A stretch of 64,000 nt of DNA from assembly GCA_032622095.1 (NCBI GenBank), contig CP136064.1, forward strand, positions 273,877,614 through 273,941,613, given 5' to 3'. Below are positions 8,197-60,863 of the stretch, one piece after another. The position numbers and the translations under genes are program-made. Source of the stretch: Siphonodentalium dalli (lineage: Eukaryota; Mollusca; Scaphopoda; Gadilida; Siphonodentaliidae). Under the pieces are notes generated by a model. That model was not told the origin of the DNA, ran no database searches, and saw nothing but the letters and a program-made list of their open reading frames with translations. The stretch's first letter is position 1. Each line of letters opens with the position of its first letter.

Positions 8197-8242
8197 CAAA
8201 GGCTTTATGCTGTCGTGATTATAATCAGCAATTTTATTTCAG

Positions 8243-8441
8243 AACATTTTATTAGTGAGGTGGCTTGTAAAGAATGGGACAGAATCAAGGTTGTCTGCTG
8301 TCAGCCATTTCGTAAAGATCTCCAGTTCGGACTCTCTTTTCTGAGAGTGAAATCTGAACGATTGCCGAGTGAGGTGAAAGCCCCGATTGCTAACGGCATC
8401 ACAACGATGAAAGAGAAATTCATGAAGCATATAGGGGAGAA
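8243..8441 (+). CDS. Exon 1 in window: C-terminal part of an XRCC1 N-terminal domain
   Basis: The acceptor tttatttcag ends at 8242 and the donor GTATGT starts at 8442. Two bases of a split codon open the exon, so an upstream exon ending in phase 1 is missing. It encodes 65 residues and ends in phase 2, which joins exon 2 to make Asn66. The core KEWDRIKVVCCQPF ... FGLSFLRV matches the signature of the XRCC1 N-terminal domain (WDR-K-V-C-QP ... K-D-FGLSF-R) as I remember it. This corresponds to the later strands of that beta-sandwich, about its last third. The tail to residue 65 is Lys-rich and unlike XRCC1. A piggyBac-type MITE remnant lies 47 bp upstream and half of a TA-target MITE begins about 30 bp downstream, yet the exon is intact. 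Confidence 0.85.
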
Positions 8442-11400: not shown

Positions 11401-14400
11401 CGTTAGAGGCTCGGAAGTGGAGTAGGAAAAGCATGATAACTTGGGGGGAATTGTATTTACTTATATACCATGTGGGTGAGTATATAATGAGGTGCTTGGT
11501 AATACACATCGGGATTGGTCCCGCTGTTATGGTCATTTCCTATGACCATATTTGGGGAGCCGTCTTCATTGTGTGTAGGTCTTGGTAGAGAGTAAGATGT
11601 ATGAGGTTTCCAAGGAACCGAACACGGATATTCGTAATGGGGCATGTGTATCATGTCACATCTGATCAGCTGTGATGACCTGGTCATGCAGAGTTACATG
11701 TAAACCCACTTTGATCAGCTGTGATGACCTGGTCATGCAGAGTTACATGTGAACCCACTGTGATCAGCTGTGATGACCTGGTCATGCAGAGTTACATGTA
11801 ATCCCACTGTGATCAGCTGTGATGACCTGGTCATGCAGAGTTACATGTAAACCCATTGTGATCAGCTGTGATGACCTGGTCATGCAGAGTTACATGTAAA
11901 CCCACTGTGATCAGCTGTGATGACCTGGTCATGCAGAGTTACATGTAATCCCACTGTGATCAGCTGTGATGACCTGGTCATGCAGAGTTACATGTAAACC
12001 CACTGATCAGCTGTGATGACCTGGTCATGCAGAGTTACATGTAATCCCACTGTGATCAGCTGTAATGACCTGGTCATGCAGAGTTACATGTAATCCCATT
12101 GTGATCAGCTGTGATGACCCAGTCATCCAGCTGATCTTTGCTATGTTATTACATGATATATCATCACTTCTTTTATTTAATAACTTTGGGTTTTGGTAAA
12201 TATTAAGATTCTGTTTTTGCTGGATAATTGGAGACTAGATACTTCCCAGATAATGAGGCCTAAGCAGAATGAGGTCCCCAGAGGGTTAATTTGCTGACAT
12301 AACCTGCTGTGCAGGATAGCATCCATAAATTCACCCTCTTGGGACCTCTTCCTGCAAACTATTCTATTTATCTGTACTTACCTGAATTTCTAGCGGTAAA
12401 ACTGCGTCTGCTCTGACGTCTAAGCTGCTTAAGATTTCTGAGACGTCAGAAGAAGGAGGTGGAGCAGCATCAGATAGTCTGTCAAGGACAGCAAAGATCA
12501 TGTTAGCGGCAGCTGGTACCTCAAACAAATTCAGCCCGGCTAGAAAAGTGAACGACTCTGAGCGGAAAGTTTATTCCAAGACACAGCTCGAAAAAGAGGC
12601 ACCTCAGGTACTTGAAACAGAAAATAATCATATTTTAATTCAGTCTTTCACTTTCAACTTACACTTATTACGCCAAACGACAAAAATGTTTGGTTCCCGG
12701 GCAATTTTTTTTATTCAAATCAATGAGGGACGGAGGGTTTTATTTTTATTATTTATTTTTGTCAGTTGTTATAGTAAGTGTAGTAATTGTGTATATTAAC
12801 CTGGCTTCCCCATTGTGAGTTCATACTTAGGCATAAAAAAAAATACCTTTGTTTCCTGTAACCCTCCCTCCTGTTTGCCAGATGGCCCCCATAAACTTTT
12901 TATTTGCAAAATAAAAAAAATCCCAAAGTTCCCAATTTACAGTCTGAAAATTTCCAATCTCATTCTCTGAACTTGACTTTATTCTTCCAATTTCTTATCA
13001 GTTTAAGTTGCTGATTTCAATTCAGTGAGTCATTAGCCTAATTAACTTGCAAAATCGCACTCACAAAACACACTAAACCAGGGATAGTGGGCTAACAAAC
13101 ATCCAAAAACAAGATTCCTCGAAAATAGGCAACTTTAACGCAAAGTCTTTTAGACTGATGGGTATGGAATATGTTTATTAACTCAATTTGATATGTTTGG
13201 GGGTGTTGATTAATAGATATTAAATGGCTTTGGACATATGTGACAATTGATTGTTTCATAGAAATTCTCCAAAATTGTTAAATTTTCTGATAGTTAGGCA
13301 CTGAAGCATGTAACCCCAGTATGAAAATTGGATGAAACATTGATGATTTGCGTGAAGGTGCAGGGAGGTGGGAATTTTTCTAGCATGTCAATATTGTTCA
13401 CATACAGGGTAGGGTCCTGCGAATATTCGATATTCGAATCGAGATTCGATTCGAAAGTCAAATTCGATTCGAATTCGAGTCGAAATCTCCAACTCGAAAT
13501 TTCGAATATATATGGATGAAATTATAGGCTGCTTGCAAACACGTACACACGTCGATCTTAGCTATTTCTGTGCCATTTAATTCCCTAAAATTATGAATAT
13601 ATGCGCTTTATAATTTTTATTTTACATCACGATTGTACGCATGCTATTAAATAAGTATGGCCAGTAATTAGCCACTAAATTAGGACCACTAAATACGTCT
13701 GAATTCTAGCTTTGAACATGGTTGCCAAAACCTCTGAGATCGCCGTTGGACCGACGACGCACGTATATTATAATAACTATGAGACTGAGCAACTGCTAGC
13801 GTTATTGCAGACTATCCATCTCAGGTTCCGCGTGATGTGTATGTGACATCGCTGATGATGTAAACAACACGTGTTTCAGGTGTCGAAAAGTGCATGTTGG
13901 TGGAGTTTTCTTTTGAAGTTAACTGTCAGTTTCGGAGCGTTCCTTTGACACTTGACAATAAGTCGTCCGTTATTCGTGTTTATTTTAAACACGATAAGCT
14001 TCTTAGACAGTACAAGAACTTACACGTGTGCCGAATACAACATGTGTATAAATCACAAGCATCTGGGACAACGACCCATCTATGGAATCAGTTCCAGAAG
14101 CACCCAGTACTACACAAACAGGCTACCCTGCGACTGTTGTTGCATCTTCAAGTTTACAATAACGGGTGTTTCCGAATGCCCATTTCAATTTTGCATGTAC
14201 ATGCAAACTGTACAAACTTTGCATGATTTTAGTTCCGATAAGCCAGTTATATATTAATCGTCGTAACGTCCGCATGGACGTTTTGATCTGTTTTTTTTTT
14301 CTTCTCGACGATAATCAATTGAATTTAATAGTATCGCGATCGATGGTTGATCACCACATAAGTTATGATGGAACTTCATGGAAGTTCATAGAACATTTCA

Positions 14401-17400
14401 AACATCACCTAATCGTTGGCAAAACATGCCTAATTAAGAATGCAACACACATGTATAATTCGATTCGATATTCGATTCGATATTCGATTCGATATTCGAT
14501 TCGATATTCGATTCGATTTCTTCAATTCGATTCGATATTCGATTCGATCAAAATCTCCAATTCGCAGGACCCTAATACAGGGAACTCATGCTTTAATGCA
14601 ACATGTTATGGAATAATTACTTAATTCATTATGCACGTACTAAATTATACCAAGAATCAATCATAAATAAAAGTCCTGACTATAATTTGTAAATAATAAT
14701 TTCAACTACTAGAATAAAGTCTATATCAGTTTTATAGAGGTATTGGCTTAGTATTTTTGTGTCCAATGTGGGGAAGGTAGTGGTGTGGTGAAAGCTTCTG
14801 TAAGACAATAGATTCAAGAAAGCCACTCCTATATGCGAGATTTGTACAGAGCAGTCTGACTCCTGTTATTGCCAGGCCATATGATAAATAAAAACTTAAA
14901 TAAAAGTATATAAAATAAAGTGCCTTGCAAGTTCATTACAATATTATATCTAGATAGACTATATACATATTATTACATAGTATATCTGTATCTACAATAC
15001 ATTAAGGAATGGCTGTTATTGCCTTGTGCGTTATGGGAATTAAAAAAAAGAAGAAGAGGTTTACCCCCCCCCCCCCTCCCCCCCCCCCCCTACCCTAAAT
15101 TTTTGCCCAAAACAAAGATACTGTTTTATTTGACCTTAGCACAGTTGTTGGAAGTTCTGACTAAAAAAAATATTTCCTCACTTATTCTACCGCACTTTTT
15201 ATGTGCATGTACACACATATATATTTAGTCAGAACTTCCAACAAATGTGATGAGTGAACCACATATCTGTTTAAATTAGTAAATATGATGCCAAATTGTG
15301 GAATATAATAAAGACAAGTTTGTTTTAGACATGGACACATCATGTCAGAGGTACATCTTATATCCTCAAATTGTGTGGCGACAAAACAAACATGTGCAAC
15401 ATTAACTTTACCTCATTCAGCATGGTTTGATATCACACACCACAGACCCACTTTCCTATGACTCTGAGATGTTCCCAATGAACACAACAATCTAAAATTG
15501 GTTTATTTCAGTGGTTGTATTGAAAGGGGTAAGCTCAGCTCTTACTGGGCTCTCTTGGTGGCAATTTATCCATTTAAAATAACCTTTACAAGTAGAAGAA
15601 ATGTATATCCATAGTTTACCTTTACTGGCACAATACACAAGTCCCTCAGTATTTAGTTATTGTGTATTATTTGTAAAGAAACAAGCATAATTGCATGCTC
15701 CAATTACCATGTTTAAAAACAGACAGTATGACGTAACTATCAAGAAAATATTCGGGCAGATATCTCAACCACCGGTTGTCATATCTTGATGTAATTTGGT
15801 ATGGATGTTCACTACTATGAGGAAATTCATTGGAGCATTCAATCGTTTTGTTTGTGTTTTCTGTTCTAGAGTTATTATACCCCCACTTTCGAAGAAAATG
15901 GGGAGTATACTGGATTGACTCCATACGTCCGTCCGTCATGCTTTCTCCCTCCGTTTGTCTGTCTGTCCGTCGTACCGTCCGACCTCATAACTCGAACAAC
16001 TATGAACCGATTTCAATAATTTTTTGTGTGCAATCTCCTTAGGACTGCCTCTCCGCATGATGCTAATAGAAAATTCTGTCCGACTTAATAACTTTAACAA
16101 ATATGAACCAATTTGAATAATTTTTTCTCTACAAGCTTCTTGTGACACCATATCGATATTATTAGTCCGAATTTTTCTTTAAAGTTAAAAATCTTTTTTG
16201 TTGTGCTTACGGATATTGCGGGTTGAATTTGCCACGATGGGGGTATGCTAGCACTCGAGTGCACACCTCTTGTTCATCTTTGTTTATCTGGAAATGTTTT
16301 GTCTTTGGAGCAGATATCTCAGCCACAGGTTGTCAATCTCAATGAAATTTGATACAGATATTCACCACTATGTGGACATTAATTTTATTCACATTATCCG
16401 TTTTAGAGTTATTCATCTTTTTATCTGGAAATGTAGCTTTTTTGGTCTGTCCGAGCTGGTCCGAGTAGATATCTCAATCATAGGTTGTCAGATCTTAATG
16501 AAATGTGCTATGGATATTTACCACTATGAGGACTATGATGAAAATATTGACTTTTGGGTCCGACTCTGCTCGAGTTTCTTAGCCATATGTTGTATGAATG
16601 CTGCATGTAGGTATGTACTGGGCGACTGGCCGACAGCATTGTAGATATGGTACATGTGGGTATGCACTGAACTACTGGCTGCTTGTATGTATGATACATG
16701 TGGGTATGCTCTGAACTACTGGCGGGTTGTATGCATGATACATGTGGGTATGCACTGGGCGACTGGCCGAAAGCGCAGCTCTTGTATTGACTTTTGTAAG
16801 TTGTGTTCTCCTTTGTTCCAGTTCAGTGATCAAGTCAAAAATTTTCTCAAGAGCCTCAATCTACATGAAATGGATCTAGACTCTATAAAACTAGTCGGTA
16901 AGATAGAAACTAATTTTAATTAATCTATAACCATTAGGTAAGTGGGTGTCTGACCAGGTGTTTTATATGTTAACCATTATAGGTAAGTGGGTGTCTGACC
17001 AGGTGTTTTATATGTTAACCATTATAGGTAAGTGGGTGTCTGACCAGGTGTTTTATATGTTAACCATTATAGGTAAGTGGGTGTCTGACCAGGTGTTTTA
17101 TATGTTAACCATTATAGGTAAGTGGGTGTCTGACCATGTGTTTTATATGTTAACCATTATAGGTAAGTGGGTGTCTGACCAGGTGTTTTATATGTAACCA
17201 TTATAGGTAAGTGGGTGTCTGACCATGTGTTTTATATGTTAACCATTATAGGTAAGTGGGTGTCTGACCAGGTGTTTTATATGTAACCATTATAGGTAAG
17301 TGGGTGTCTGACCAGGTGCCACATCTGATATGGTCAGCGAAAATAACACCTGGCCCTCCGGAATGACAGTAACAAGTCAGACAAATCATACCTAGCAACA

Positions 17401-20400
17401 CACAACAATCGGCGATAAACAAACGCCAATCATTTCGCCATCGAGACTAATTGCATTTAATAAATATATAAGAATGAAGGTGTGTGCTGTAAATTTGGAT
17501 AAATATTCTTTAAAATAACTAGTTTGAGCAAGATTATTCTCCATTTCTATTTGATCACACAACCGGAGTGTTTCACATCACTTTAACGTAACTAGAACAA
17601 CAAGGATGAGGGCACAAGGTTATAACAAAGCTTATAAGCCTGTATAATGTTCATGGTAACATTTGTACCGAAAGGCGTGCTATATGTGGAATGTTATAAC
17701 CTGTTGGAATTGTCGTCTATTATAGGGGACGAGTCTCAATGACCAATATAATCTTTGAATCAGATTGTGAAAATCCTTTATGAACCCTGTATACATTTGG
17801 AGGAACATTAACCCTTTGATTGCCAGGTCGATTTTTGTATGAACCCATATACCCTGTGCCAATGCATTCTCTTATATATGCGAGTTGACCATAGGTCGCC
17901 TCGCATATATAAGAGAATGCATTGGCCTAACAATTTTTTTTTTTTTTTTTTTTTTACAATTTTTTACAAATTTAATAATTTATTCTTATATTCTTTAACA
18001 GACTTATTTTGTAGGTTTAGGGCCGATTAGATCGGCCCCTGGCACTCAAAGGGTTAAGGATATATGAGAAGACAACCAAGCCTGCAAATAGCGTGTCTGT
18101 CATTTGCAGAATGATATCCCCAGAGGGTGAATTTAGTGACGCTATCCCGCATAGCGGGCTAGCATCACTAAATTCACCCTCTGGGGACCTCATTCTGCTT
18201 AGGCCCTCTACTTCTGTGGTAGACCTAGGATCAGATTGAAGTTCCCTAGTTGAAGATGGTGATGTTCAACTGTTGGGCACCTCGATTATGCATATTATCT
18301 GCTGCAAATTAGGGGATATAGAAACTTCCCAGAAGGGAAAATGTAGGTAAAAACAATGCTAATTTGAGACTATAGATACTTCCCAGAAGATGAGGCATAA
18401 GCAGAATGAGGTCTCCAGAGGGTGAATTTGGTGATGCTAGCCCGCTATGCGGGATAGCATAACTAAATTCACCCTCTGGGGACCTCATTCTGAAAATGAC
18501 TGACACGCTATTTGCAGGCTTGAAGACAACAGCCAGAACAAAATGATAGTACAAGTGCAGAAGTTCAAATTCATTGGTGGGAAATGTTTAGATAATAAAT
18601 TCAACAAACAACCTTTGGACTGAACATTTTCTAAGGGAACTACTCGTCAATGAGTCTTTAGTATAGAAAGGGTTAATAAGGGAACTACTCGTCAATGAGT
18701 ATTTAGTATAGAAAGGGTTAACTTCATGCAGGTTTCAAGGTTTGTGTTCAGGTCTCAACATTTGCAGAATGTGGTCCCCAGAGAATGTTGAATTTAGTGA
18801 CCCTACAGCAGGGTGGATCACTAAATTCACCTTCTAGGGACCTCATTCTGCTAAATAGGCCTATCTTCTCTGCAAAGTATCTTTATAATCTTTAGAAACA
18901 TCTTTATTAGTTGCATAATTGCATGTGGCCAATGGGTGCACATCACCGTCTTTACCTAGGTGTCTAGGTCTCCCATAGCAGATGAGGTCATACAGAATGA
19001 AATACCGATAGGATGAATTTGGTGACACTATCCCGCTTTGCAGGTCTGTGGGGTAGCATCACTAAATGCACCCTATGTGTCCCCATTATGCAAATGACAG
19101 GCACCTTATTTTGAGGCCTAGCTATCAAAATGTGGTTCAGCTTTCCCTTGCGAACGTTACCTATTGAAAAGAGGGATTAGTTTATCCCTTTACCCAACAG
19201 AAGGGCCCTGTGCCAATGCATTCTCTTATATATGCGAGTCGACCATAGGTCGCCTCGCATATATAAGAGAATGCATTGGCTTAACACATTAAAAATTATA
19301 AAACTGTTAAAGAATGTAAGAAAAAATGGTAAAAAGTGTTAAAAAAAGATTTTTTTTAGGCCAATGCATTCTCTTATATATGCGAGGCGACCTATGGTCG
19401 ACTCACATATATAAGAGAATGCATTGGCACAGGGCATAACTGTAACTATCACAATGTGGCCAAGGAGCCGGTTCCAATGATATCCATATTTGTATGGTTC
19501 TATTGAGACAGACCGAAGATATTTTAGGCTGTTGAAGCTTTATTTGGCCGGTTTTGGCCGGATTGTTGGGTAAAGGTTTTATAGGCATATTATGAAGGCT
19601 GTATATATAATATTATGAAGACTGTATTATATTTTGAAGGCTGTATATATGATATTATGAAGGTTGTATTATATTATGAAGGTTGTATTGTATTATGAAG
19701 GTTGTATCGTATTATGAAAGCTGTATCATATTATGAAGGTTGTGTTATATTATGAAGGCTGTATATATGATATTATGAAGACTGTATTATATTTTGAAGG
19801 CTGTATATATGATATTATGAAGGTTGTATTATATTATGAAGGTTGTATTATGAAGGTTGTATCGTATTATGAAAGCTGTATCATATTATGAAGGTTGTGT
19901 TATATTATGAAGGTTGTATATATGGTATTATGAAGGTTGTATTATATTATGAAGGTTGTATTGTATTATGAAGGTTGTATCGTATTATGAAGGTTGTGTT
20001 ATATTATGAAGGCTGTATTATATTATGAAACCATTCCAATTTTCCTTATTCATTCTTATTTCAGATTTGCGCCATCAATTGGAGAAAACACTCCAAAGGA
20101 AACTGTCCAAAGATGAAAAAAAAATGTTTTTCAATTCTTCAAAGGAATTGTTATCGGAGGTGTTTTCAAATTCAAATACAACCAGTATTCCAAGCCTCCC
20201 TCCTCAAAAAGTTAACTTTCCAGGTATGTAAGACAGATATGTAGTGATATGTAGACATTATTCCTTCATCGAATACAATGCTGGCGTCATAGGTCAATTG
20301 TGGTCGATGAGATGAAAGTACGACATCTGAAAAAAACTGTGAATTAAGTAAAAACAATTTCAATTTTCTCTTATGCCTAGGAAATTTTCAATAAAGTGTT

Positions 20401-32400: not shown

Positions 32401-32924
32401 AGAGCTTTCCGATGAATGGCAACAAGTCCTACTAAATCCTGAAAAGTTACCCCTAATTCTTCTGTGGTTAAAGAGTCGATTAATTAGGGCATTAATGTAC
32501 AATAATTATCTTTAGAACTTAATGGTTCAAAAAAAAAAATTTGTCCTGGAATTTATCACTATTTACAGCAAAATTTGTTCAGGGACTGATAGCAAATTGA
32601 ATCAAAATACACTCACAGATGGAAGATGTTTGATAGAAATATCCAATTTGTTCCATATTTGAAATATTAATATATTATATGTCAAGTATCGGAATGTCAA
32701 AACAGTTCAAAAACCACCTGTTGTTGAGTGGACACATATCCAGAGATGAGTCCAGGGATATTTTGGGGATTCATGTTTTCTCTGAAGACTTATGTTGGGG
32801 CGGGGTGTCTAAGGTTCTCTCAGCCTCACTACTTTTGAGGGATTAGGATAGTTAATCAATATTAACTTTTGAAATTCCAATAAATGTATGTATTGTAATG
32901 GAGGTGATACTATTGAATCAAACT

Positions 32925-32970
<46 letters not shown>

Positions 32971-47900: not shown

Positions 47901-50900
47901 TTTAAAGTTAAAATTATTTTTGTTGGGTTTGCGGATAATGAGGGATGAATTTGCCACGGTGGGGGTATGCTAGCACTCGAGTGCACACCTCTTGTTCTTG
48001 TTTATATTAACCCTTTCATGACTGGAGTGTCCTGAATTATTTAAAAAACCGTGTGCCTTGCATTCTTATATAAGAGAATAAATTCTTAAAAGAGAATCCA
48101 TAGGCCTAACAATATATACCTTGACCTTTTAAACAAGTGCATTCTCTTATATCTGGGAGACTCGCATATATAAGTGAATGCACTGGCACAGTATCCTTAA
48201 TGCTGCACCAGCACAACTCCCGTCGTGAAAGGGTTAACTTTATGAGTTATAACAAAATTTTGTCTTCAAACTTTTCGGATATAACTGCATAAATTTAAGC
48301 GGTGAAACAAGTTATTTCTTAATTATTTGAAGGCTTAGGCCAATACAAATAAATTTTTAGATTTGCATCCCAACTTTTTCAGACAAAAGGGAGGGGATGG
48401 CGTATTTTATTTTATTCTTCCACACATAAATGGTCATCGACTGTCTCTAATATTGAAGCAGTATTCTATGTGATAAAATACAAGGTGATTAAGATTGTCC
48501 ACTTTGATCAAAATAGAGTGATTTTAATGGGTCATAGAAATGTAATTTGACGGTTAAGGCATGCAAAAAAAGTTTACATTAAAGATATCAAGGTAAAAAA
48601 AATATTGAGGAGGGGGACTAAAAATCGGGTCGGAGGGGATGTAAATCAAGCTATTTTTTATATATTGATCTTATGTTCCAATATTATTCTAATTCTGATA
48701 TTTGCTTTCAGATATTAGGCGCTGTTTTGAAAAGATGAAAGGTTTAAAATTATCAGGGTCGGAAAAGAGAATATTAACAGACACAGCCAGGGAGAAGTTA
48801 CGTGAAAAGTACTTGCCAAGCCGAGGGAAAACGAGGACGACATCTCAGAAAGTCACACCAATCATGAAGCCAACTGAGGATGTAAAACCTATATTGAATT
48901 CCAAGGGGAAGGCCCCCGTCAAGTCCAGGTCCTTTCATAAAAAGGGCTCAAGGTATATTATATCATTTAATCTGATATTATCTTAGATTCTCAGCAAGCC
49001 TTGAAATAGTGTGCCTGATATTTGCAGAATGAGGTCCCCAGAGGGTGAATTTAGTGATGCTATCATGCATGGTGGGCTAGCATTACCAAATTAATCCTCT
49101 GGGAACCTCATTCTGCTTTGGCCTCGACTGCTATGGGAGACTAGGATCAGATTGAAGTTCCCCAGTTGAAGTTTGTGATGTTCACCCATTAGTCATCTCG
49201 ATTATGCATTTTATCTTCTGTAAATTAGGGGATATAGAAAATAAATAGAAGGGAAAAAGTAACTAAAACAATGTTAATTTGAAACTGTAGATACTTCTGG
49301 AAGACGTGGCTTAAGCAGAATGAGGTCCCCAGAGGGTGAATTTAGTGATGATAGCCCACTATGCCGGATAATGTCACTAAATTCACCCTCTGCGGACCTC
49401 ATTCTGCAAATGACAGACACACTATATCCAGACTTGATTTGCAGGGTTCCTATGCAAAGTCATATTCCTGTCATTTGCAGAATGAGGTAATCAGAGGGTG
49501 AATTTAATGATGCTATCCTGCATAGTGGTCTAGCATCACCAAATGCACCCTCTGGGGACCTCATTCTGCATGGCCTCATCTGCTATGGGATACATACTCA
49601 GATTGAAGTTCCCAAGTGGTGAATAGTGTGATGTGCACCCATTGGGAATCTCAATTATGCAATGTGTCATCTGCCAATTTTGGGGATATAGAAAAACTAT
49701 GCAAAAAAAGAAGTAGAATCTATGTGAAGTAGTTTCTATAGAAATTTGATAATAAAGTAATTTCCAGGGAAGATGAGGCCTAAGCAGAATGTGATCCCCA
49801 GAGGGTGAATGTCATGATGCTGGCCTGCTATGCGGGATATAGTAACTACAGGCTGTCCAAACCCCCAAGTTTATTGGTCAAATGTGCTGAAATATTTTGA
49901 TAAAAATCAGGAATAGAAGTAAGATAGAGTTTTCCCCCCTTGCTACGCTATTGCAATAGAAGGTACGAAAACTGGAGCAGTTCGACAACCGGTGTACATG
50001 TTTATTGGCCATGTTTATGATGGTTATTTGAAGTTTTATTGTCCATCATCCATTGCGGTACATATACAGTCTCTAATTAGTCATAGGAATGACTAATTAG
50101 TCATAAGTGAATCAAGACTTTCTATGCTAGTTTGGAAGATCACTTTATCTTTACGTTTCAACAGTATTTACATTCTGTATTTTTATATGAATCGGATATG
50201 TAGTTATCCGTGTTGTTAAAAATTATTGTGCCTATATTAAAATCATATCAATATATATATCATTCTGGGTAATCCCTGTATGATGTACAGGGTAGTACAA
50301 TGTCATAATTTGTCATTGGTATTATCAGATTAAATTAGTTTATATCCATTACAAAGTTCTCGCTACATTTTCTGAACCTGGCCGGGAAGGTTTGATAACC
50401 CATGTTTACTATGGGCAGTAAAAAATAAAAATAAAACCCTTGCTCCCGCATGGATTTTCGAAATAAAAATTGTCTGAGAATCAAATATATTTTTTTTGCC
50501 TTAGCACACCCTAGAGACCACATCCCTCAGCTGATCATCACCAAACTTCAAACGGATCTTTGTGGGTGACCTCTAGATGAGAGCCATCAATTTATTTCTA
50601 AATTTGTTAAAAAACATGGCTTCCAGCAACTGTCTTGGATTTCATATTTGACTTTATCGGCACACCCTGTAGCCCACATATATTGAACAATTGTTTTAAA
50701 AAAAATTTGACCTATTTAGGATCACCTAGATGGGAGCTATAAAATCATGGCTCTTTGGGTTGACCTCTGATATTACTTTACCCTTTCATGACGCGAGCTT
50801 CCTTAATTTTTGCGAAAACACTGTGCCAGTGCAATCTCTTATATATGCGAGTCTACCAAAGATCGCCTCGCATATATAAGAGAATGCATTGGCCTAACAA

Positions 50901-53900: not shown

Positions 53901-56900
53901 ACAATTAAAAAAAAATCCTCTCTAGAAAGTCAATATCTGCATCAAAACATCAAATAAAACGAAAAAAATAAATGAACAACAAACTGAAAAACAATGCCAA
54001 ATTAAAAAAAATGTTGTTATGCCAAACTGCAGCCTAATTAATAATTATTGTAGTTTCTACAGTCTGTTGTGTATTCGAGTGAATTATTTTGTTTACGCAC
54101 TTATCGATCTTGACTGGAAGGATTTTATCAAGCTGTTCACAGTCGTGCACTTCTCCACACAATATGTTTCGCGTGAAGAAACAGACATGAACATTAATTA
54201 TTATGACGAATATAAGCCATCATGATACATGTACTAGTATAATAACCACCACCTTTTTAATCACACCCCATTTGTGTTTAATTGTACTCCTATAGCGCAC
54301 AACGGGATGACACTAGTGTGTGAACTAGCTTTCGAAAGAAGAAGCTATATGTCATAACTTGTTTTCTTTCAGAAACAGTTAAATTAATAGTTTCGCATGA
54401 AATTCCGCTCGCTCATTGCATTTCTGCATAAATTAATCTCATTTCACACAACTTTTATCGCCTCAAAGTGCATTTTAGACATCGTTATTCGTTATATCAA
54501 CATTCTAGCAAATCCAGTTCATAATTCAGCACATTCAAACAGTTTTATCCGGTGATCGCTATTTATCGTAAAGGCCTAGCTAATTAACCACCGACTGCAA
54601 TATTTTATACGTAATTTATCAACTCGTTACGCGATTGGCAGAATTATTTCAAGCTCCACCCACCGGTGTCGATGCAGATGATCGGTCATATGACTGCGTT
54701 GTGGTCATGTGATCGCATTCACGTGATTTACACTTCAGATATTTCCGCGATTTTTTTAATATCATAATAATAATAAAAAATACTATCGGCTCGATTTTGA
54801 ATTTTCTTGGCAAAATGGGTCTGTTAGACATATATTCTTAGTATTATGACGATAATTTTTTATTTTTTTTAACAGACTAATTTCTTTAATGTTGCACCAG
54901 TGAAGCTCCTGTCATGAATGGGTTTCAACTTTGCACATTTCATCTCGCTCCATTAACTGTAATGTATTATCTCCTCTCTAAATTGAGCTACAGTGTCATT
55001 GATACATTTATCTTTTGACTTATGGTTTGATGAGGGACGATTGGCGGCGGGCGGACCTAAAGAATGCCTTATAACTTTGACATTTGTGAACGGATTAAAA
55101 ACAATTTTGGTATGTGAGTTGCTCCCAATGACTATTTACTGCCTGTAGAAAATGGGTCACGTCCAAACTTTTTGACAAGAGTTATCCATCTTTGATGACT
55201 TTTTTTAGTTTTTCACTGTTAGCGTGATAACTCACGCAAATATTAACCAATTTCAACAATATTTGGTATATGAGACTCTTGCAACGATATCTCAGACGAG
55301 TTCGAAAACCAGGTTTGTCCGGAAAAAAAATTCCGAAGTTATGGGTCTTAGTTTGTCTTTTTTTAGCAATGTTATCACCGTTAGCGCGATAACTCGATGA
55401 AATATTAACCGATTTCAACAATATTTGGTATATGAGTCTCCTGCAACAATATCTCAGACGAGTTCGAAAACCTGGTTTGTCCGAATTTTTTTTCCGGAGT
55501 TATGGGTCTTAGTTTGTCTATTTTAATAACAATTTTATCACCATTAGTGCGATAACTCAATGAAATATTAACGGATTCAATTGATATTTGGAAAATAGGT
55601 CTATTGCAATAATATACCACCGTCCGACTTTTTTTCCCGGAGTTGTGCACCTTATTGGCAGAAGTTTTGTTCGACTGCCAAAAAACTCGACAAAAGCATC
55701 TTAGATGCGTACCCCTTGTTTTAAAGACATATTATAGACTTGTTCGGGTGCGTGAAATTGATTGGTTAGTAGTCAGGCGCTATGCCAACTGGAGGAATGT
55801 AATATTCTACTAACATTGCCGATAATCTCAAAGAAATCAATCATACCACTCCATAGAAAATATCGTCTGAACTATGTGTAATTGTAAATATATACTTCTA
55901 AATTCGGGACGCAAAAATAATTTCACCATCGATAGACACTGCATTTAATAATAATATTAGAATGTCGATGTGTGTTGTCGATTTGGATATACAATTTGTA
56001 AACTTAACTGCTTTTAGCAAGATTGTTCTCAATTTCTATTTAATCACCATACCAGAGTGTTTCACATCATTTTAACTTTGGGTTCCATCCTGCCCCATGT
56101 TCCAATTTGTCGCAATCGGGGTATGGCAGCCACCGACCCTGTTTTTCAAGTTTTCAGACTTCTCTCTTGTTTTTCTTTAACAGGAAGACACCAGTTCCTG
56201 ATGCATGCTGTAGCTCTGTTGAAATCATTAATGACATCTTCTGTATAAAGTGTAAAGGTGAGTTGTCCCAGCACTAGTTGTTAACATGGTCCCCATAGAA
56301 ATATGAGCTTTTTTTTCAGACATTTTACCATTTTTCGACATACAGTTTTCTACATACAAGGTTTTGGATGAGATTATATGATATTTTGGAAATAACATCT
56401 CAATAATGAGGGAAAAGGTATTTTCCTGATGACTAAAGGGCACATACTCTAAATATATTGTCTAATTTGACACATAGAATCTGCCAAAACCGTGTGTATG
56501 TCCTTTTGGAAGCCCACCGACGATATTTTCCCTGAAAATCCCTTCAGACAAACTATAGAACATTCCGATGTATACGTTTTAGCTCACCTGAGACGAAGTC
56601 TCCGGTGGAGCTATAGTCATCACTCCTCGTCCGTCCATCCATCCGTCCGTCCATCCGTCCGTCAAGAATAGTCTTCTTCTCATGAACGATAAGACTGAAT
56701 GGGTTCATATTTGGTGTGGATGTTCCCTGGGTGACTCACATTCAGATTTGTTCAAATGAGGTCACCAGGTCAATTAGTTATGAAACCAGGGCCATAACTC
56801 TATTCCTCCATAGTAATTCTTAGAACAACTTCTTCTCAAAAACCATTGGGCTGATTTAGCTTATATTTGGTATGGAGGGGCCTTGGCTGACTGGGGTTCA

Positions 56901-59900: not shown

Positions 59901-60601
59901 TTCGGGGGTAAAAAATATTTGATTCGAGTCAAGCAACCGGCATATCAAAGCTGATAGTTATTGGATATTGATTTTTGAAATCTATTATTTTTCTCCATCA
60001 TTTTTCACCATCATTAGTGGCCCAGTAAACTGTCAACGAGCCGACGGTCTGGACCAATTTGCGGATGAAGAATATAACTCAAATCAAGAGGCTTTCTGTT
60101 GATAATAAGTCCAAATTTCATCGAACAACATGTTGATAAATAACACATTTCTGGCAATTTTATACTATAGTTGACAGTGGTTAGCATTATTTTTGGGCAA
60201 TAAATCGATTCTGATAACTGAAGCGGCATTTAAAAAAAATGTTGTTGTTGGAATCTGATTATATGGGGACCATAGAATCAGATTGAGTACATTTAAATAT
60301 GTTCTTATTGTAATTTTTTCTTTCAGCACGATTTTCAGAAGCCACGTTTTCTAATCACTATCTCATGTGTAATGGACCCCGAACAGAATACAGAAACACT
60401 GTGATACCAAACACGCCGAGCACCTCCTCTATGGTTGACCTGACTGCCGACTACCGCTACCATAACGACGGTTCAGTGATGGACCTGACACACTCACCAG
60501 AAGCAGATAACGGAGTCGATTGTCCTATCTGTAATTTAAGATTTCCTATTGATATCATTGAGTTACATGCTGATGCCTGTCTATCTGCCAACACATTCTA
60601 G
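8243..60601 (+). CDS. Ten-exon gene, 5'-incomplete: XRCC1-NTD-like / duplicated helical module / UBZ4-SIM-SIM-UBZ4 protein
   Basis: Joined exons give 955 full codons plus a split first codon, ending at TAG 60599-60601. Exon-end phases (2,0,1,1,1,0,1,2,1) each match the next exon start, and all introns begin GT and end AG. Seen, by residue of the partial protein: 1-66 end of an XRCC1 N-terminal-type domain; 138-196 helical module copy 1; 217-673 Ser/Thr/Ala/Asn-rich, probably disordered; 708-725 bipartite NLS; 735-795 module copy 2; 860-879 UBZ4-like finger; 901-904 and 915-919 SIM-like motifs; 930-949 second UBZ4 finger. Known: XRCC1 NTD binds DNA polymerase beta and nicked DNA; UBZ4 fingers bind ubiquitin in RAD18, SLX4, FAN1 and others; SIMs bind SUMO. 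Inferred: a nuclear genome-maintenance protein. An XNDC1-like origin is possible. No BRCT domain was found, so it is not canonical XRCC1. Extra or alternative exons cannot be excluded. Confidence 0.85.
8471..8578. mobile_element. Right half of a TA-target palindromic MITE
   Basis: Matches the right arms of the complete elements at 27895-28107 and 32292-32497, ending GCATTACTG before TA. The left arm is absent. It starts about 30 bp after the exon 1 donor. Confidence 0.75.
8620..9060 (+). repeat. Dispersed element with ~120-180-bp internal units
   Basis: Three related units begin with cttgtaactcggg-like sequence near 8680, 8855 and 9010 and contain gtgatagtacagcttgggg. A similar organisation with other units occupies 9580-9990 (tttgatctgaaccaaagtt at about 9580, 9750 and 9925). 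Non-coding; class unknown. Confidence 0.5.
9246..9575. mobile_element. Diverged double-hairpin hAT-type MITE
   Basis: CAAGTCTCAGTATAGTGTG start and the characteristic GCTAGCATCACGAAATTCA hairpin arm are present; the right half has lost its hairpin. No target duplication found. Confidence 0.6.
10463..12130 (+). repeat. 49-bp minisatellite with a 597-bp higher-order duplication
   Basis: The unit contains GATCAGCTGTGATGACCTGG then TCATGCAGAGTTACATGTAA. A block of about four units plus about 400 bp of unique sequence (10667-11065) is repeated directly at +597 bp (11264-11662) almost without change. A longer array of about nine units follows (11660-12125). The unique part holds a perfect-armed hairpin, CGAGCCTCTA/TAGAGGCTCG (about 10793 and 11390). 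The array lies in intron 1, just before exon 2. Confidence 0.9.
12229..12360. mobile_element. Partial double-hairpin hAT-type MITE
   Basis: Only the right half is present (GCAGAATGAGGTCCCCAGAG ... CTTCCTGCAAA), 33 bp upstream of the exon 2 acceptor. Confidence 0.65.
12394..12607 (+). CDS. Exon 2: Ser/Lys-rich linker
   Basis: The acceptor is gaatttctag (ends 12393) and the donor GTACTT starts at 12608. A TGA in frame at 12383-12385 shows that the open frame starts at the splice site. The first base completes Asn66; residues 67-137 follow and the exon ends in phase 0. Composition is Ser, Ala, Lys and Glu rich (GKTASALTSKLLKISETSEE ... SERKVYSKTQLEKEAPQ) with no domain that I recognise. An internal Met (12500) could be an alternative start, but the codons before it look coding and join exon 1 in phase. 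The donor is weaker than the others in the gene. Confidence 0.8.
13410..14574 (+). mobile_element. hAT-type element, 1165 bp, with decayed BED-finger trace
   Basis: Termini TAGGGTCCTGCGAAT and inverse; 8-bp target duplication ATACAGGG at 13402-13409 and 14575-14582. Sub-terminal TTCGAT-rich repeats lie at both ends. Inside (about 13954-14110) a plus frame reads SSVIRVYFKHDK ... VCRIQH ... GTTTHLWNQFQKHP, resembling a BED zinc finger (S-x-V-W-x-Y-F ... C-x2-C ... T-x-L-x-x-H-x4-H) with a lost ligand. A relative is at 25010-25100. Confidence 0.8.
14575..15870. other. Intron 2 sequence without supported coding features
   Basis: AT-rich, with a C-rich run at 15063-15090. Two copies of the TTGGAAGTTCTGACTAAA sequence, inverted to each other, are near 15148 and 15226. 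Nothing coding seen. Confidence 0.4.
15730..16560 (+). repeat. Two dispersed elements, one inside the other
   Basis: Units of the type atatctcaaccac.ggttgtca ... aatttggtatggatgtt recur at about 15760, 16312 and 16465. Between the first and second sits a separate element, about 15873-16275, starting TTATACCCCCACTTTCGAAG, with (GTCC)n sequence and ending GCACACCTCTTGTTC. That second element recurs at 47393-47995. Confidence 0.6.
16604..16765 (+). repeat. ~44-bp tandem repeat upstream of exon 3
   Basis: About three and a half units of TACATGTGGGTATGCACTGA with a variable ACTACTGGC... centre, ending about 55 bp before the exon 3 acceptor. Confidence 0.7.
16822..16897 (+). CDS. Exon 3: first half of helical module, copy 1 (76 bp)
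   Basis: The acceptor is ctttgttccag (ends 16821) and the donor GTAAGA starts at 16898. Residues 138-162 are FSDQVKNFLKSLNLHEMDLD followed by SIKLV; the last base starts the codon for Asp163. Same length (76 bp), same phases (0 in, 1 out) and the same final residues IKLV-D as exon 7. The pattern predicts two amphipathic helices separated by a short loop. I do not recognise the domain. A 45-bp minisatellite begins about 35 bp after the donor and a roughly 44-bp repeat lies upstream. Confidence 0.85.
16934..17322 (+). repeat. 45-bp minisatellite carrying a splice-donor consensus
   Basis: About 8.6 units (44-45 bp) of ACCATTATAGGTAAGTGGGT followed by GTCTGACCAGGTGTTTTATA. Every unit has GTAAGT after an AG, a near-perfect 5' splice site, starting about 35 bp after the real exon 3 donor. 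Two variants (CATGTG versus CAGGTG) are interspersed. Its open frame of 15-residue units is a consequence of the period being a multiple of three. Confidence 0.93.
17405..17590. mobile_element. Half copy of a TTAA-flanked MITE
   Basis: Matches one end of the elements at 55733-56072 and 58428-58790, including GAGTGTTTCACATCACTTTAA at its right end. Left part missing. Confidence 0.55.
17812..18053. mobile_element. piggyBac-type MITE (TTAA), 242 bp
   Basis: TTAA at 17808-17811 and 18054-18057; termini CCCTTTGATTGCCAGG / CCTGGCACTCAAAGGG. Same length as 3139-3380 and very similar throughout. Confidence 0.9.
18077..18522. mobile_element. Double-hairpin hAT-type MITE, full copy
   Basis: CAAGCCTGCAAATAGCGTG and inverse; perfect 8-bp duplication AAGACAAC at 18069-18076 and 18523-18530. 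Two hairpins with about 200 bp between, as in 2416-2854. Confidence 0.92.
18750..19124. mobile_element. Diverged double-hairpin hAT-type MITE
   Basis: Two hairpins of the family are recognisable (CATTTGCAGAATGTGGTCCC at the left, ATTATGCAAATGACAGGCAC at the right), with diverged termini. Confidence 0.65.
19195..19576. mobile_element. piggyBac-type MITE, long form, decayed ends
   Basis: CCCTTTACCCAACAGAAGGG left and GTTGGGTAAAGG right; the TTAA sites have become TTAT and TTTT. Two large hairpins, each of TGCATTCTCTTATATATGCG arms. Inverse orientation of 58793-59185. Confidence 0.8.
19584..20033 (+). repeat. ~19-bp minisatellite upstream of exon 4
   Basis: Units of TATTATGAAGGTTGTATTA with variants (ggctgtatatatgat, gaaagctgtatca) in a partly regular higher order, about 23 units. 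It ends about 30 bp before the exon 4 acceptor, so it may include the branch-point region. Confidence 0.88.
20065..20223 (+). CDS. Exon 4: second half of helical module, copy 1
   Basis: The acceptor is ttcttatttcag (ends 20064) and the donor GTATGT starts at 20224. It completes Asp163, then gives residues 164-215 beginning LRHQLEKTLQRKLSKDEKK, a further predicted helix to about residue 196, and a Ser/Pro/Asn-rich tail to NFP; it ends in phase 1 (Gly216). Aligned with exon 8 it shares D-x-R, E-K, KLS, E-K and E-x-L-x-E at matching spacings with no gap over about 40 residues, so the two are duplicates. A 19-bp minisatellite ends about 30 bp upstream of the acceptor. Confidence 0.88.
20224..22340. 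other. Intron 4, first part
   Basis: A fragment of the double-hairpin hAT-type MITE is at 20599-20725. The rest is AT-rich with no exon, RNA gene or repeat that I can define. Imperfect repeats with GGTATACAGGGAGTTATTGT and related units begin near 22130. Confidence 0.5.
22341..23550. mobile_element. Mutator-like non-autonomous element, 1210 bp, 9-bp TSD
   Basis: 46-bp terminal inverted repeats beginning TAGTCCAAGTCTTCT, 44 of 46 matching; target duplication CCGATGTGC at 22332-22340 and 23551-23559. A 9-bp duplication with long TIRs fits MULE elements. No transposase reading frame. The repeated sequence it entered continues on both sides (22130-22331 and 23560-23670). Confidence 0.85.
23674..24396 (+). 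mobile_element. Truncated copy of a TA-target element
   Basis: Starts CCGTACTGACCCGCG after TA (23672-23673) and follows the complete element 62303-63566 closely to the GACAAGTTCCCCCTT shared at about 24382-24396, then stops. The right ~560 bp and right terminus are missing. Confidence 0.8.
24431..24632. mobile_element. Small MITE with GTACTCT termini, about 200 bp
   Basis: GTACTCTTGGGTGCCAAATA at the left and its inverse ending GAGAGTAC at the right. The right half contains three tandem CACGTTTATT units. AT on both sides may be the target duplication. Confidence 0.65.
24633..25350. other. Intron 4, last part
   Basis: A hAT end fragment (CGATTCGATTCGAGATTCGA ... GATTCGCAGGGCCCTA) is at about 25010-25095. 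The rest holds no recognised feature. The exon 5 acceptor follows a short polypyrimidine tract. Confidence 0.45.
25351..26724 (+). CDS. Exon 5: long Ser/Thr-rich exon, 457 full codons
   Basis: The acceptor is tctattttcag (ends 25350) and the donor GTAAGA starts at 26725. It encodes residues 217-673 without a stop. Composition is strongly Ser, Thr, Ala, Val and Asn rich, with almost no Trp, Tyr or Cys, so it is probably disordered. Visible features: a Lys-rich stretch (KQKKVKSKK, residues about 264-272); an acidic patch DDDFD at 299-303; two paralogous stretches with SMCVKS and SMCIKS; and four imperfect 8-residue units of the form G-A-N-S-S-V-x-x near 512-537. The opposite strand is open for 221 codons (25811-26476), but that is a by-product of biased codon composition. 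No catalytic motif was seen. Confidence 0.9.
26765..27232. repeat. Inverted-repeat pair just after exon 5
   Basis: 26 bp at 26767-26792 (CCACTATTATAGTGGTATAT...) recur exactly, inverted, at about 27205-27230, with a further short CCACTATA repeat after it. Probably the ends of a small MITE of about 470 bp. It begins 40 bp after the exon 5 donor. Confidence 0.6.
27233..27892. other. Intron 5 sequence without supported features
   Basis: No exon or RNA gene recognised. Short open frames have no coding character. Confidence 0.4.
27895..28107. mobile_element. TA-target palindromic MITE, 213 bp
   Basis: Almost perfect palindrome: TAGTAATGCCCTAATTAAT at the left and its inverse GGGCATTACTG at the right, flanked by TA. 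The centre pairs GGAAAGCTCTC with GAGAGCTTTCC. Related to 32292-32497 and 8471-8578. Tc1/mariner-like by its target. Confidence 0.85.
28108..29076. other. Intron 5 sequence with a weak ~33-bp tandem repeat
   Basis: At about 28535-28680, units of the form CGTTGATGGTTATCTCAACA (and variants with cattgacggttacctcgatca) recur imperfectly four to five times, and later CACGTT/CGCGGT sequences look related. No coding sequence. Confidence 0.45.
29077..29329. mobile_element. Double-hairpin hAT-type MITE, short form
   Basis: CAAGCCTTGAAATAGTGTGT and inverse, with target duplication ATGACATC/ATGACATT (one mismatch) at 29069-29076 and 29330-29337. The two hairpins are almost adjacent, lacking the 200-bp spacer of the long form. 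Confidence 0.88.
29338..31016. other. Intron 5 sequence with a dispersed element
   Basis: At about 30270-30560, two units of TTTAAAACTTGGCACA.AT.TCAACCAGCATG-like sequence form part of a dispersed element also seen at 63815-64000. The rest is AT-rich with nothing recognised. Confidence 0.45.
31021..31130. mobile_element. Left half of a TTAA-type MITE
   Basis: TTAA (31017-31020) then CCCTTTCAGTGCCAAGTCCG, matching the element at 62232-63704 up to GGAAAGAGCTCTAA. The right half is missing. This copy shows the uninterrupted sequence into which the 62303-63566 element inserted. Confidence 0.8.
31165..31346 (+). CDS. Exon 6: EGAA repeats and bipartite nuclear localisation signal
   Basis: The acceptor is ttatcattcag (ends 31164) and the donor GTAGGT starts at 31347. 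It completes Glu674, then residues 675-734, ending in phase 0. The first half has three EGAA units (674-677, 690-693, 699-702) spaced by AI-DSRF and L-DSRH, a small internal duplication. The second half has KR at 708-709 and KRRK at 722-725 with exactly 12 residues between, fitting a bipartite importin-alpha signal. A truncated TTAA-type MITE (31021 to about 31125) ends some 40 bp upstream of the acceptor. Confidence 0.85.
31550..31724. mobile_element. Shortened double-hairpin hAT-type MITE
   Basis: CAAGCCTTGAAATAGTG start and the typical hairpin sequence ending CAAATGACACAT; the interior is partly deleted. Confidence 0.65.
31753..32203. mobile_element. Double-hairpin hAT-type MITE, long form
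   Basis: Termini CAAGTCTGAGTTTAGTGTG and CACACTAAACTCAGACTTG; two hairpins and the typical spacer. The 8-bp flanks no longer match. Confidence 0.85.
32292..32497. mobile_element. TA-target palindromic MITE, 206 bp
   Basis: CAGTAATGCCCTAATTAAT and inverse, with TA at 32290-32291 and 32498-32499. The same family as 27895-28107. Confidence 0.88.
32926..32970 (+). repeat. Poly-C tract, about 45 nt
   Basis: An uninterrupted C run follows AAACTT and precedes ACTGAGT. The length is likely to be unreliable in the assembly. Confidence 0.9.
33139..34126 (+). repeat. 27-bp minisatellite abutting exon 7
   Basis: About 36 units of TCTGCCCTCATTCATAAATA then CATTTTA. Variants add three bases (AATATC), change tcat to ttat or gttc, or give TGATCTGCTC. 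The period is nine codons, so one frame stays open for 141 codons (33611-34036), but it is not a gene. The last unit ends about 10 bp before the polypyrimidine tract of exon 7. Confidence 0.95.
34139..34214 (+). CDS. Exon 7: first half of helical module, copy 2 (76 bp)
   Basis: The acceptor is gtttttttccag (ends 34138) and the donor GTATGT starts at 34215. Residues 735-759 are LADDVTAYIRSLKITPENLQ followed by YIKLV; the last base starts Asp760. It equals exon 3 in length and phase and shares D-x-V, an aromatic/aliphatic pair, basic-S-L, L-x-x-IKLV-D. The 76-bp exon is squeezed between a 27-bp minisatellite that runs up to the polypyrimidine tract and a 31-bp minisatellite starting about 275 bp downstream. 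Confidence 0.88.
34489..35364 (+). repeat. 31-bp minisatellite downstream of exon 7
   Basis: About 28 units of ACAGACCAATTTAGTGGCTA then TATTAATTAAT. Variants (actaattta, gtgacta, ttgcta) occur in blocks, and a run of about nine units is repeated in the same order, which implies block duplication. Confidence 0.94.
35493..35765. mobile_element. TA-target MITE with nested palindromes, 273 bp
   Basis: TTTTGCCGACTGATTC at the left and GAATCAGTCGGCAAAA at the right, each next to TA. The inside is a multiple palindrome in which GCAAACTATTCAAGAGTTTG and its complement alternate four times around AGGGTTTATTATAATAAACC. Confidence 0.85.
36189..36277 (+). mobile_element. Left part of a piggyBac-type MITE split by the LTR element
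   Basis: TTAA (36185-36188) then CCCTTTACCCAACAAACCGG, identical in layout to 58793 onwards. It breaks at CATACAAA (36270-36277), where the LTR element begins. The remainder is at 46989-47296. The two parts together are 393 bp, the size of the intact copy at 58793-59185. Confidence 0.92.
36278..38230 (-). repeat. 3' LTR of the LARD-like element (left copy on the + strand)
   Basis: 1953 bp. It contains a 62-bp direct repeat (36396-36457 and 37467-37528, starting CCTAAAGTCATGAAAACAG) with about 1 kb between. I saw no difference from the right copy in the stretches compared, so the insertion is recent. The open frames of 80 and 66 codons in it recur in the other LTR and are not genes. Confidence 0.9.
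38231..45035 (-). other. Interior of the LARD-like element, non-coding
   Basis: No coding sequence. Visible structure: a GGT/GTG-rich microsatellite at 39330-39380; degenerate ~28-bp repeats with GATTCGTTCCCGGAAGTGA at about 41095-41210; six units with AATAAAGAGCGTCT at 44258-44450; and a CT microsatellite at 44820-44840. The sequence 42700-42850 resembles the MITE at 55733-56072, pointing to captured host or repeat sequence. Confidence 0.75.
45036..46988 (-). repeat. 5' LTR of the LARD-like element (right copy on the + strand)
   Basis: 1953 bp, same length as the left copy with no indel between the ends. It is followed on the minus strand by the primer-binding-site-like sequence one base inside the element. 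Confidence 0.9.
46989..47296 (+). mobile_element. Right part of the piggyBac-type MITE split by the LTR element
   Basis: CAAATATGGATATCATTGG through two large hairpins (TGCATTCTCTTATATATGCG arms) to TTGGGTAAAGGG and TTAA (47297-47300). Confidence 0.92.
47393..47995 (+). mobile_element. Dispersed element starting TTATACCCCCACTTTCG
   Basis: Starts with the hairpin-forming TACCCCCACTTTCGAAG ... AATGGGGGGTATA, has (GTCC)n-like sequence, three units of TTAATAACTTTAACAAATAT, and ends GTGCACACCTCTTGTTC. Longer than the copy at 15873-16275. Common in molluscan DNA from memory; class unknown. Confidence 0.65.
48011..48233. mobile_element. piggyBac-type MITE (TTAA), 223 bp
   Basis: TTAA at 48007-48010 and 48234-48237; termini CCCTTTCATGACTGGAGTG / CACAACTCCCGTCGTGAAAGGG with internal TATAAGAGAAT hairpin sequence. 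A third sub-family beside 3139-3380 and 58793-59185. Confidence 0.85.
48712..48952 (+). CDS. Exon 8: second half of helical module, copy 2, plus basic tail
   Basis: The acceptor is tttgctttcag (ends 48711) and the donor GTATAT starts at 48953. It completes Asp760, then residues 761-839 starting IRRCFEKMKGLKLSGSEKR, a helix to about 795, and a strongly basic tail rich in Lys, Arg, Ser and Thr; it ends in phase 2 (Arg840). The first 40 residues align without gaps to exon 4. The intron before it is the longest in the gene (14.5 kb) and carries the 10.7-kb LTR element. The donor is a weak consensus; a competing GT at 48929-48930 would break the frame to exon 9. Confidence 0.85.
48995..49436. mobile_element. 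Double-hairpin hAT-type MITE, long form
   Basis: CAAGCCTTGAAATAGTGTG and CACACTATATCCAGACTTG; flanks ATTCTCAG/ATTTGCAG match at 6 of 8. It begins 43 bp after the exon 8 donor. Confidence 0.82.
49440..49855. mobile_element. Truncated double-hairpin hAT-type MITE
   Basis: Left hairpin and spacer (CTCATCTGCTATGGGATACA ... GGGGATATAGAAAAACTATG) and the start of the second hairpin are present; it stops near GGATATAGTAACTA. It directly follows the copy at 48995-49436. Confidence 0.75.
49856..50775. other. Intron 8 sequence without supported features
   Basis: No exon recognised. The text at 50510-50700 (repeated CATCACCAAACTTCA and ACCTCTAGATGAGAGCCATC forms) looks like part of an unidentified dispersed element. 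Confidence 0.4.
50779..51125. mobile_element. Decayed piggyBac-type MITE, long form
   Basis: CCCTTTCATGACGCGAGCTTC left, two TATATATGCGA hairpins separated by an A-rich 140-bp spacer with repeated GTAAGAAAAAATGA, and TGCATTGGCACAGGGTG right. TTAA sites not intact. Confidence 0.7.
51126..52035. other. Intron 8 sequence without supported features
   Basis: No exon seen. TTCTTTATTGTCTACCGC and GCTCTTTAT near 51980-52030 resemble the short motif found at the other end of the next repeat (about 53826-53870), so they may be flanks or termini of that composite element. Confidence 0.4.
52040..53762 (-). repeat. CpG-rich cassettes, minus-strand relative of 3750-5705
   Basis: The same units in inverse orientation: CAAATTTCAAGTCGATAGCT and CTGCGCATGCGCGAAGCTGG recur at about 52690-52850 and 53305-53600, with (CAGA)n ends. 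Open frames of 80-165 codons here are by-products. Units of GATTTGACCTTGAATTG at 52100-52520 are an additional part not present in the first locus. Confidence 0.7.
53763..55055. other. Intron 8 sequence, nothing recognised
   Basis: AT-rich; no exon on either strand. A remnant of a piggyBac-type MITE end (TTGCACCAGTGAAGCTCC TGTCATGAATGGGTT) is at about 54890-54927. Confidence 0.4.
55058..55722 (+). repeat. Second copy of the ~160-bp-unit element
   Basis: Matches 5765-6585 in order, with one unit fewer; ends AAAAGCATCTTAGATGCGTACC. Non-coding. Confidence 0.72.
55733..56072 (+). mobile_element. TTAA-flanked MITE, about 340 bp
   Basis: AGACATATTATAGACTTGTTC at the left next to TTAA, and GAGTGTTTCACATCATTTTAA at the right. 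The inverse copy is at 58428-58790. It ends about 110 bp before exon 9. Confidence 0.72.
56184..56257 (+). CDS. Exon 9: first zinc-ligand pair of UBZ4 finger 1
   Basis: The acceptor is tttctttaacag (ends 56183) and the donor GTGAGT starts at 56258. It completes Arg840 and encodes residues 841-864, KTPVPDACCSSVEIINDIF then CIKCK. C860 and C863 are the first zinc ligands; the matching His and Cys are in exon 10. The exon is too short to be found by open-frame length alone. It is supported by phase (1 in, 1 out after the split codon) and by completion of a C-x2-C-x11-H-x3-C finger across the intron. Confidence 0.8.
56580..56960 (+). repeat. Dispersed element starting AGCTCACCTGAGACGAAGTC
   Basis: CTCCGGTGGAGC hairpin, (GTCC/ATCC)n tract, then two units of TGGGTTCATATTTGGT-like sequence. 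Common in molluscan DNA from memory; class unknown. Confidence 0.55.
56961..58427. other. Intron 9 sequence with homopolymer tracts
   Basis: A and T tracts at 56939-57050; G runs at 57954-57963 and 58218-58236. No exon, RNA gene or element termini recognised. Confidence 0.45.
58428..58790 (-). mobile_element. TTAA-flanked MITE, inverse copy
   Basis: Inverse of 55733-56072, from TTTAAAGTGATGTGAAACAC to CATAATATGTCTTTAA. A piggyBac-type MITE sits in its terminal TTAA. Confidence 0.72.
58793..59185. mobile_element. piggyBac-type MITE, long form, intact, 393 bp
   Basis: TTAA at 58789-58792 and 59186-59189; termini CCCTTTACCCAACAAACC / TTCTGTTGGGTAAAGGG. Two large hairpins (about 58940-59012 and 59091-59160) with an A/T-rich spacer. 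This is the intact reference for the copy split by the LTR element. A 23-bp sequence, ACAAATACATAATATGTCTT plus TAA, is present on both sides of it. Confidence 0.92.
59468..59837. mobile_element. Double-hairpin hAT-type MITE
   Basis: CAAGCCTGGATATAGTTTG and ACTATTTCCAGGCTTG, two hairpins with about 150 bp spacer. 8-bp flanks not matching. Confidence 0.82.
59838..60326. other. End of intron 9, nothing recognised
   Basis: AT-rich intron ending in the strong exon 10 acceptor tract. No other feature seen. Confidence 0.5.
60327..60601 (+). CDS. Exon 10: rest of UBZ4 finger 1, two SIMs, UBZ4 finger 2, stop
   Basis: The acceptor is ttttttctttcag (ends 60326) and the TAG stop is at 60599-60601. It completes Ala865, then residues 866-955. 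H875 and C879 finish finger 1 (C860-x2-C863-x11-H875-x3-C879). Two SUMO-interaction-like motifs follow: MVDLT (900-904) and VMDLT (915-919). Finger 2 is C930-x2-C933-x11-H945-x3-C949, with Asp947 in the HxDxC position that contacts ubiquitin in RAD18-type UBZ4 domains; finger 1 has Leu877 there. The last 18 codons (60548-60601) are also the first unit of a downstream 54-bp minisatellite. Confidence 0.92.
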
Positions 60602-60863
60602 ATTGATATCATTGAGTTACGTGCTGATGCCTGTCTATCTGTTAACACATTCTAGATTGATATCATTGAGTTACATGCTGATGCCTGTCTATCTGTTAAC
60701 ACATTCTAGATCCATTGAGATACATGCTGATGCCTGTCTATCTGTTAACACATTCTAGATTGATATCATTGAGTTACATGCTGATGCCTGTCTATCTGTT
60801 AACACATTCTAGATTCATTGAGATACATGCTGATGCCTGACTATCTCTTAACACATTCTAGAT
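60548..60863 (+). repeat. 54-bp minisatellite founded on the last codons of exon 10, block 1
   Basis: Unit 1 (60548-60601) is coding: I-D-I-I-E-L-H-A-D-A-C-L-S-A-N-T-F-stop. Units 2 and 3 are 54 bp each and keep the same reading phase, each ending in TAG. Later units lose about 5 bp (ATCCATTGAGATACATGC). The array is interrupted at 60864. Confidence 0.93.

Follow-up and report, generated by a model that had tools for sequence, protein, structure and literature searches.

The DNA analysed here holds a single intact animal gene of 13 exons, and the 1,080-aa protein that these exons encode joins a complete XRCC1-type N-terminal domain (XRCC1_N), which is under purifying selection, to a C-terminal tail with a UBZ4 finger and a pair of SIM-like motifs. 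On balance, the protein reads best as a SUMO/ubiquitin-guided DNA-break adaptor that would act independently of DNA polymerase beta, encoded by an XRCC1_N paralogue that is probably of the XNDC1 type, although this preference is a modest one. The window, i.e. the whole stretch of 64,000 nucleotides under analysis, corresponds to C4:273877614-273941613 of the 2.23-Gb genome of Siphonodentalium dalli, which has 9 chromosome-size contigs.

Exons were chained on the basis of splice sites, phase, and codon usage, with a codon table derived from 20 kinase exons in this genome. The chain comprises 12 exons and ends with a TAG stop at 60599-60601, and the initial exon was added separately to give 13 (Table 1). 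All exon borders carry AG/GT, and the phases are compatible across the 12 junctions. Exactly ten exons of the chain lie from position 8243 onward, which is the number and span that an initial annotation of this DNA had reported as ten exons in one frame; three 5' exons had been overlooked there, one within the window (3543-3704) and two that lie before its first position. Exon 2 (DETHPVNNL...) follows exon 1 in phase 0, and the joined start reads MPPVRFSFVVSFSSQDETH, for which the human XRCC1 equivalent is MPEIRLRHVVSCSSQDSTH. Exon 11 was matched solely at the two copies of the gene in the genome. Lower exon penalties in the chain gave extra short exons, several of them within repeats; these disrupt the first finger of the tail and were rejected. 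Minisatellites closely flank exon 10, at 33137-34126 and 34487-35363 (27-bp unit x 36 and 31-bp unit x 28).

Table 1. Exons of the gene in window coordinates; negative positions lie upstream of the window, and copy B is the second genomic copy of the gene.
Exon	Position	Strand	Content and support
1	-9666..-9622 (C4:273867947-273867991)	+	upstream of window; MPPVRFSFVVSFSSQ, then donor GTAACA
2	-1016..-878	+	upstream of window; splice chain
3	3543..3704	+	mid XRCC1_N (SFHCANIQIQVGKSQWPQDQSFITLIPTCNLMTVNECRQ...); PF01834 exon match, splice chain, human XRCC1 alignment
4	8243..8441	+	end of XRCC1_N (KEWDRIKVVCCQPFRKDLQFGLSFLRV), then start of linker; PF01834 exon match at 8227-8349
5	12394..12607	+	linker; coding score 23, phase fit; identical in copy B
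6	16822..16897	+	helical module 1, first half; splice chain
7	20065..20223	+	helical module 1, second half; PP-binding 4e-4, DEK_C 0.024 (both weak profile matches)
8	25351..26724	+	458-codon Ser/Thr-rich linker, probably disordered; coding score 81
9	31138..31346	+	basic NLS-like PPSKRRK
10	34139..34214	+	helical module 2, first half
11	48712..48952	+	helical module 2, second half, and basic tail
12	56184..56257	+	3' end is CIKC knuckle of finger 1; acceptor/donor scores 4.5/5.5
13	60327..60601	+	HYLMC half of finger 1, VDLT, MDLT, finger 2, stop TAG

The XRCC1-type N-terminus of the initial annotation is borne out by profile matches, both for the exon from 8243 with which that annotation began and for the joined protein. 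With exon 1 included, the joined protein matches PF01834 over positions 1-148 of 148 (9.9e-45; 152.6 bits relative to a cut-off of 21), and without exon 1 the match is at 1.7e-36. Among solved structures, the best matches are to XRCC1 NTD entries (PDB 1xna at 1.5e-24, with exons 2-4), and 61 of 150 residues in the domain are identical to human XRCC1. The true XRCC1 of this genome is a separate gene on C8, in which a BRCT exon follows 27 kb after the XRCC1_N exons. In the 89 columns that are shared, identity to human XRCC1 is 61% for the C8 protein (54/89) and 35% for the window protein (31/89). The intron positions within the domain also differ between the window gene and C8 XRCC1, and thus the window gene is an old paralogue. 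No BRCT domain was found in a Pfam scan of the joined protein, and a genome-wide BRCT search, which weak exons may escape, gave nothing at this locus.

The tail contains the two C-x2-C-x11-H-x3-C fingers and the two intervening SIM-like motifs that had been noted initially. Finger 1 (residues 985-1004) reads CIKC-x11-HYLMC, which is exactly the zinc-ligand spacing of UBZ4. It is formed only by the splice from 56257 to 60327, where exon 12 terminates in CIKC-K and exon 13 resumes with A-RFSEATFSNHYLMC, and this is good evidence for the junction between the two exons. Finger 2 (residues 1055-1074; 60521-60580) reads CPIC-x11-HADAC and lies wholly within the last exon. The exact pattern was present in 0 of 60 random 64-kb samples. 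Finger 2 matches the UBZ4 of RAD18 (1.8e-4), with the UBZs of RAP80 (0.013) and WRNIP1 (0.052) among the matches that follow, and a database search with finger 1 gave no match. UBZs of the WRNIP1/RAD18 group touch ubiquitin via Pro21, Val22, and the helix residue Asp37, in WRNIP1 numbering (PMC4370504). When mapped on the PDB sequence, these contacts fall in the first knuckle C-P-V-C and in H-L-D; the corresponding residues are P, I, and D in finger 2, where they are kept, and I, K, and L in finger 1, where none is. Therefore, the tail probably has one ubiquitin reader, finger 2, and not the two UBZ4 readers initially proposed.

The motifs between the fingers are VDLT (60434-60445) and MDLT (60479-60490). 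SIMs are short motifs and can occur by chance. RNF4 has VDLT as the core of its SIM2 and of its SIM3, a pair that is required for SUMO chains (PMC3901395). The last exon folded alone has a mean pLDDT of 39, and this fold was set aside. A match of the tail to iota-carbonic anhydrase (9e-5) consists of three weak repeats, no single stretch of which is significant, and was rejected. A minisatellite of 54-bp units (60548..60863, + strand) carries the 3'-terminal 54 bases of the coding sequence, stop included, on into the 3' UTR. The unit encodes IDIIELHADACLSANTF-stop, i.e. half of finger 2, and the repeat also occupies 61773-62202; a marker for it has 9 matches at the window gene and 16 at copy B, the second genomic copy, the coding one included.

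Between the N-terminal domain and the tail, a helical module of ~60 aa is duplicated (residues 254-315 and 860-922, 35% identical), which the initial annotation had missed. Both modules are interrupted by an intron at the equivalent point, between V and D, and a long Ser/Thr-rich stretch separates them. Module 1 scores 21.0 bits for PP-binding (cut-off 20.8) and 15.0 bits for DEK_C (cut-off 24.8), and a profile search with module 2 gave zero matches, PP-binding and DEK_C included. The helix order looks like that of DEK_C, and in structure searches the helical modules match no solved structure. Module 1 was considered as an acyl carrier, a reading that was not adopted: the distance to helix 1 is small, and the phosphopantetheine serine is absent in module 2, which is therefore no acyl carrier. 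PPSKRRK at residues 844-850 (PPSKRLK in copy B) is of the nuclear-signal type and agrees with the nuclear protein that had been annotated.

Also overlooked was a second copy of the gene, copy B, 2.7 Mb away at C4:276552465-276638831. All 13 exons are present there in order and encode 1,069 aa with no stop; the indels are whole codons, and the ORF of exon 8 thereby stays open. Between the two copies, dN/dS is 0.34 for the entire coding sequence. In the N-terminal domain, where 12 changes are synonymous and 3 non-synonymous, it is 0.06, a value in favour of selection on the reading frame in this part. Differences in the tail are few (1 and 4) and are uninformative on selection. Exon 8 (25351-26724) differs by ~9% between the copies, which is above much of the nearby intron sequence. 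Between the gene copies, and only within the 1.3 Mb of C4:274.23-275.52 Mb, there are ~10 copies of a segment of at least 1.1 kb with 72-79% identity.

Two alternatives concern the locus itself. If two neighbours had been fused in the model, exon 4 would be the last exon of a short XRCC1_N-only gene, and the remaining exons would belong to a distinct SUMO/ubiquitin reader. A short form is indeed possible, since exon 4 is open beyond its donor as far as the stop at 8521-8523, and the introns reach 14 kb. However, all 12 junctions are phase-compatible, exon 5 begins at an in-frame acceptor, and the same 13 exons recur in the same order in both genomic copies; a fusion is thus very improbable, and the single gene of the initial annotation stands. 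The two copies might instead be one gene seen twice, an allele having been left in the assembly. Their identity is 97.7% across the 42 kb that could be aligned, with roughly half of the 84 kb under comparison not alignable in one line, and further near-identical local pairs occur elsewhere in the assembly, yet a 3-kb probe from between the copies found local relatives at ~75% and no partner at the 2.7-Mb offset. Similarly, divergence is patchy, with dS at 0.13 in the N-terminal domain and ~0.01 in the tail, a mosaic that suggests gene conversion. Another duplication-block probe was a dispersed repeat and was uninformative. A leftover allele is therefore possible but doubtful, and a true duplication is more likely.

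The other two alternatives concern what the protein would do and how new it would be. The initial annotation invoked the contact of XRCC1 NTDs with polymerase beta, and the N-terminal domain might accordingly be thought to recruit polymerase beta to ubiquitin/SUMO marks. F67 and E69 of human XRCC1, which we take to be polymerase-beta contacts, and V86 are replaced by N, Q, and T in the proteins of both gene copies, whereas C8 XRCC1 retains F, E, and V. In human XRCC1, V86R abolishes formation of the polymerase-beta complex (PMC8405949, PMC12190888). Three lost contacts are no proof of lost binding, and XRCC1_N is a polymerase-beta-binding fold (PMC12190888); nevertheless, with all three tested residues changed here and kept in the XRCC1 of the same genome, the window protein probably has no polymerase-beta link, and such a recruiter is unlikely. 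R109, which is part of the DNA-binding interface of XRCC1 (PMC8405949, PMC12190888), is retained, as is K129; F and P occupy the positions of C12 and C20. The N-terminal domain may still contact DNA.

The gene could also be an ordinary XNDC1 orthologue. The extra XRCC1_N genes known from animals are of the XNDC1 type, and the suggestion in the initial annotation that such proteins are nearest for the N-terminus is plausible; the tail would then perhaps be common to all full-length animal XNDC1 proteins, with only its domains undescribed. A second XRCC1_N gene that is present in addition to a true XRCC1, and is by its differing domain introns an old paralogue, fits this, but the literature searched describes no such tail on XNDC1, which appears there in gene lists and staining studies. 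We regard this orthologue reading as a serious contender that falls somewhat short of even chances; it is compatible with the mechanism proposed below and competes with it on novelty. Literature on XRCC1_N joined with UBZ4 or DEK_C was not found under the terms tried. Novelty was judged against the literature alone, and XNDC1 proteins may commonly have this domain order. It is put forward only tentatively that the protein represents an undescribed class of XRCC1-like scaffold, which would bind broken DNA without polymerase beta and be placed by SUMO/ubiquitin chains instead of by BRCT domains.

Known systems each resemble part of the protein. XRCC1 has the complete XRCC1_N in common with it, but the window protein has lost the polymerase-beta contacts and has no BRCT domain that was found, and its tail and intron positions are unlike those of XRCC1. 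XNDC1 (XRCC1 N-terminal domain containing 1) is likewise a second XRCC1_N gene and, to our knowledge, has no BRCT domains; the literature searched gave no description of fingers or SIMs in it. RAP80 (UIMC1), like the window protein, has two adjacent C2HC fingers, just one of which has the Asp of ubiquitin binding, and differs in its N-terminal SIM-UIM-UIM, its AIR domain, and its lack of XRCC1_N; in passing, no UIM was noticed in the window protein. Finger 2 is similar to the UBZ4 of RAD18 and WRNIP1 in sequence and contact residues, although neither a RING nor an ATPase was matched in the window protein. RNF4 SIM2/SIM3 also form a close DLT pair with an identical first core, VDLT; in the window protein the second core is MDLT, the motif-to-motif distance is 15 residues, and there is no RING. 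RAP80 serves as a model for combined SUMO and K63-ubiquitin reading in one protein (PMC7692841).

By analogy with these families, the favoured adaptor would be expressed, bind and be recruited in the following way. The N-terminal XRCC1-like domain would bind damaged DNA without polymerase-beta contacts, finger 2 would read ubiquitin, and the VDLT/MDLT pair would read SUMO chains. The tail would thus bring the protein to SUMO/ubiquitin-modified chromatin around DNA breaks, or keep it there, as in RAP80 or SLX4, with the XRCC1-like module in place of their UIMs or nuclease-binding parts. Both helical modules and the long, probably disordered middle may serve as spacers and for interaction or nucleic-acid contacts. 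Single-strand-break repair has XRCC1 as its central scaffold. If the adaptor reading is correct, a paralogue of this scaffold has SUMO/ubiquitin reading where XRCC1 has BRCT domains and contact with polymerase beta, which would tie single-strand-break repair to RNF4/RNF8-type chromatin marks and give a testable role to XNDC1, a named gene without known function in the literature examined.

Elsewhere in the genome, C2:149.83-150.60 Mb holds dozens of near-identical 281-aa kinase domain frames in one cluster, nearly all on the minus strand.
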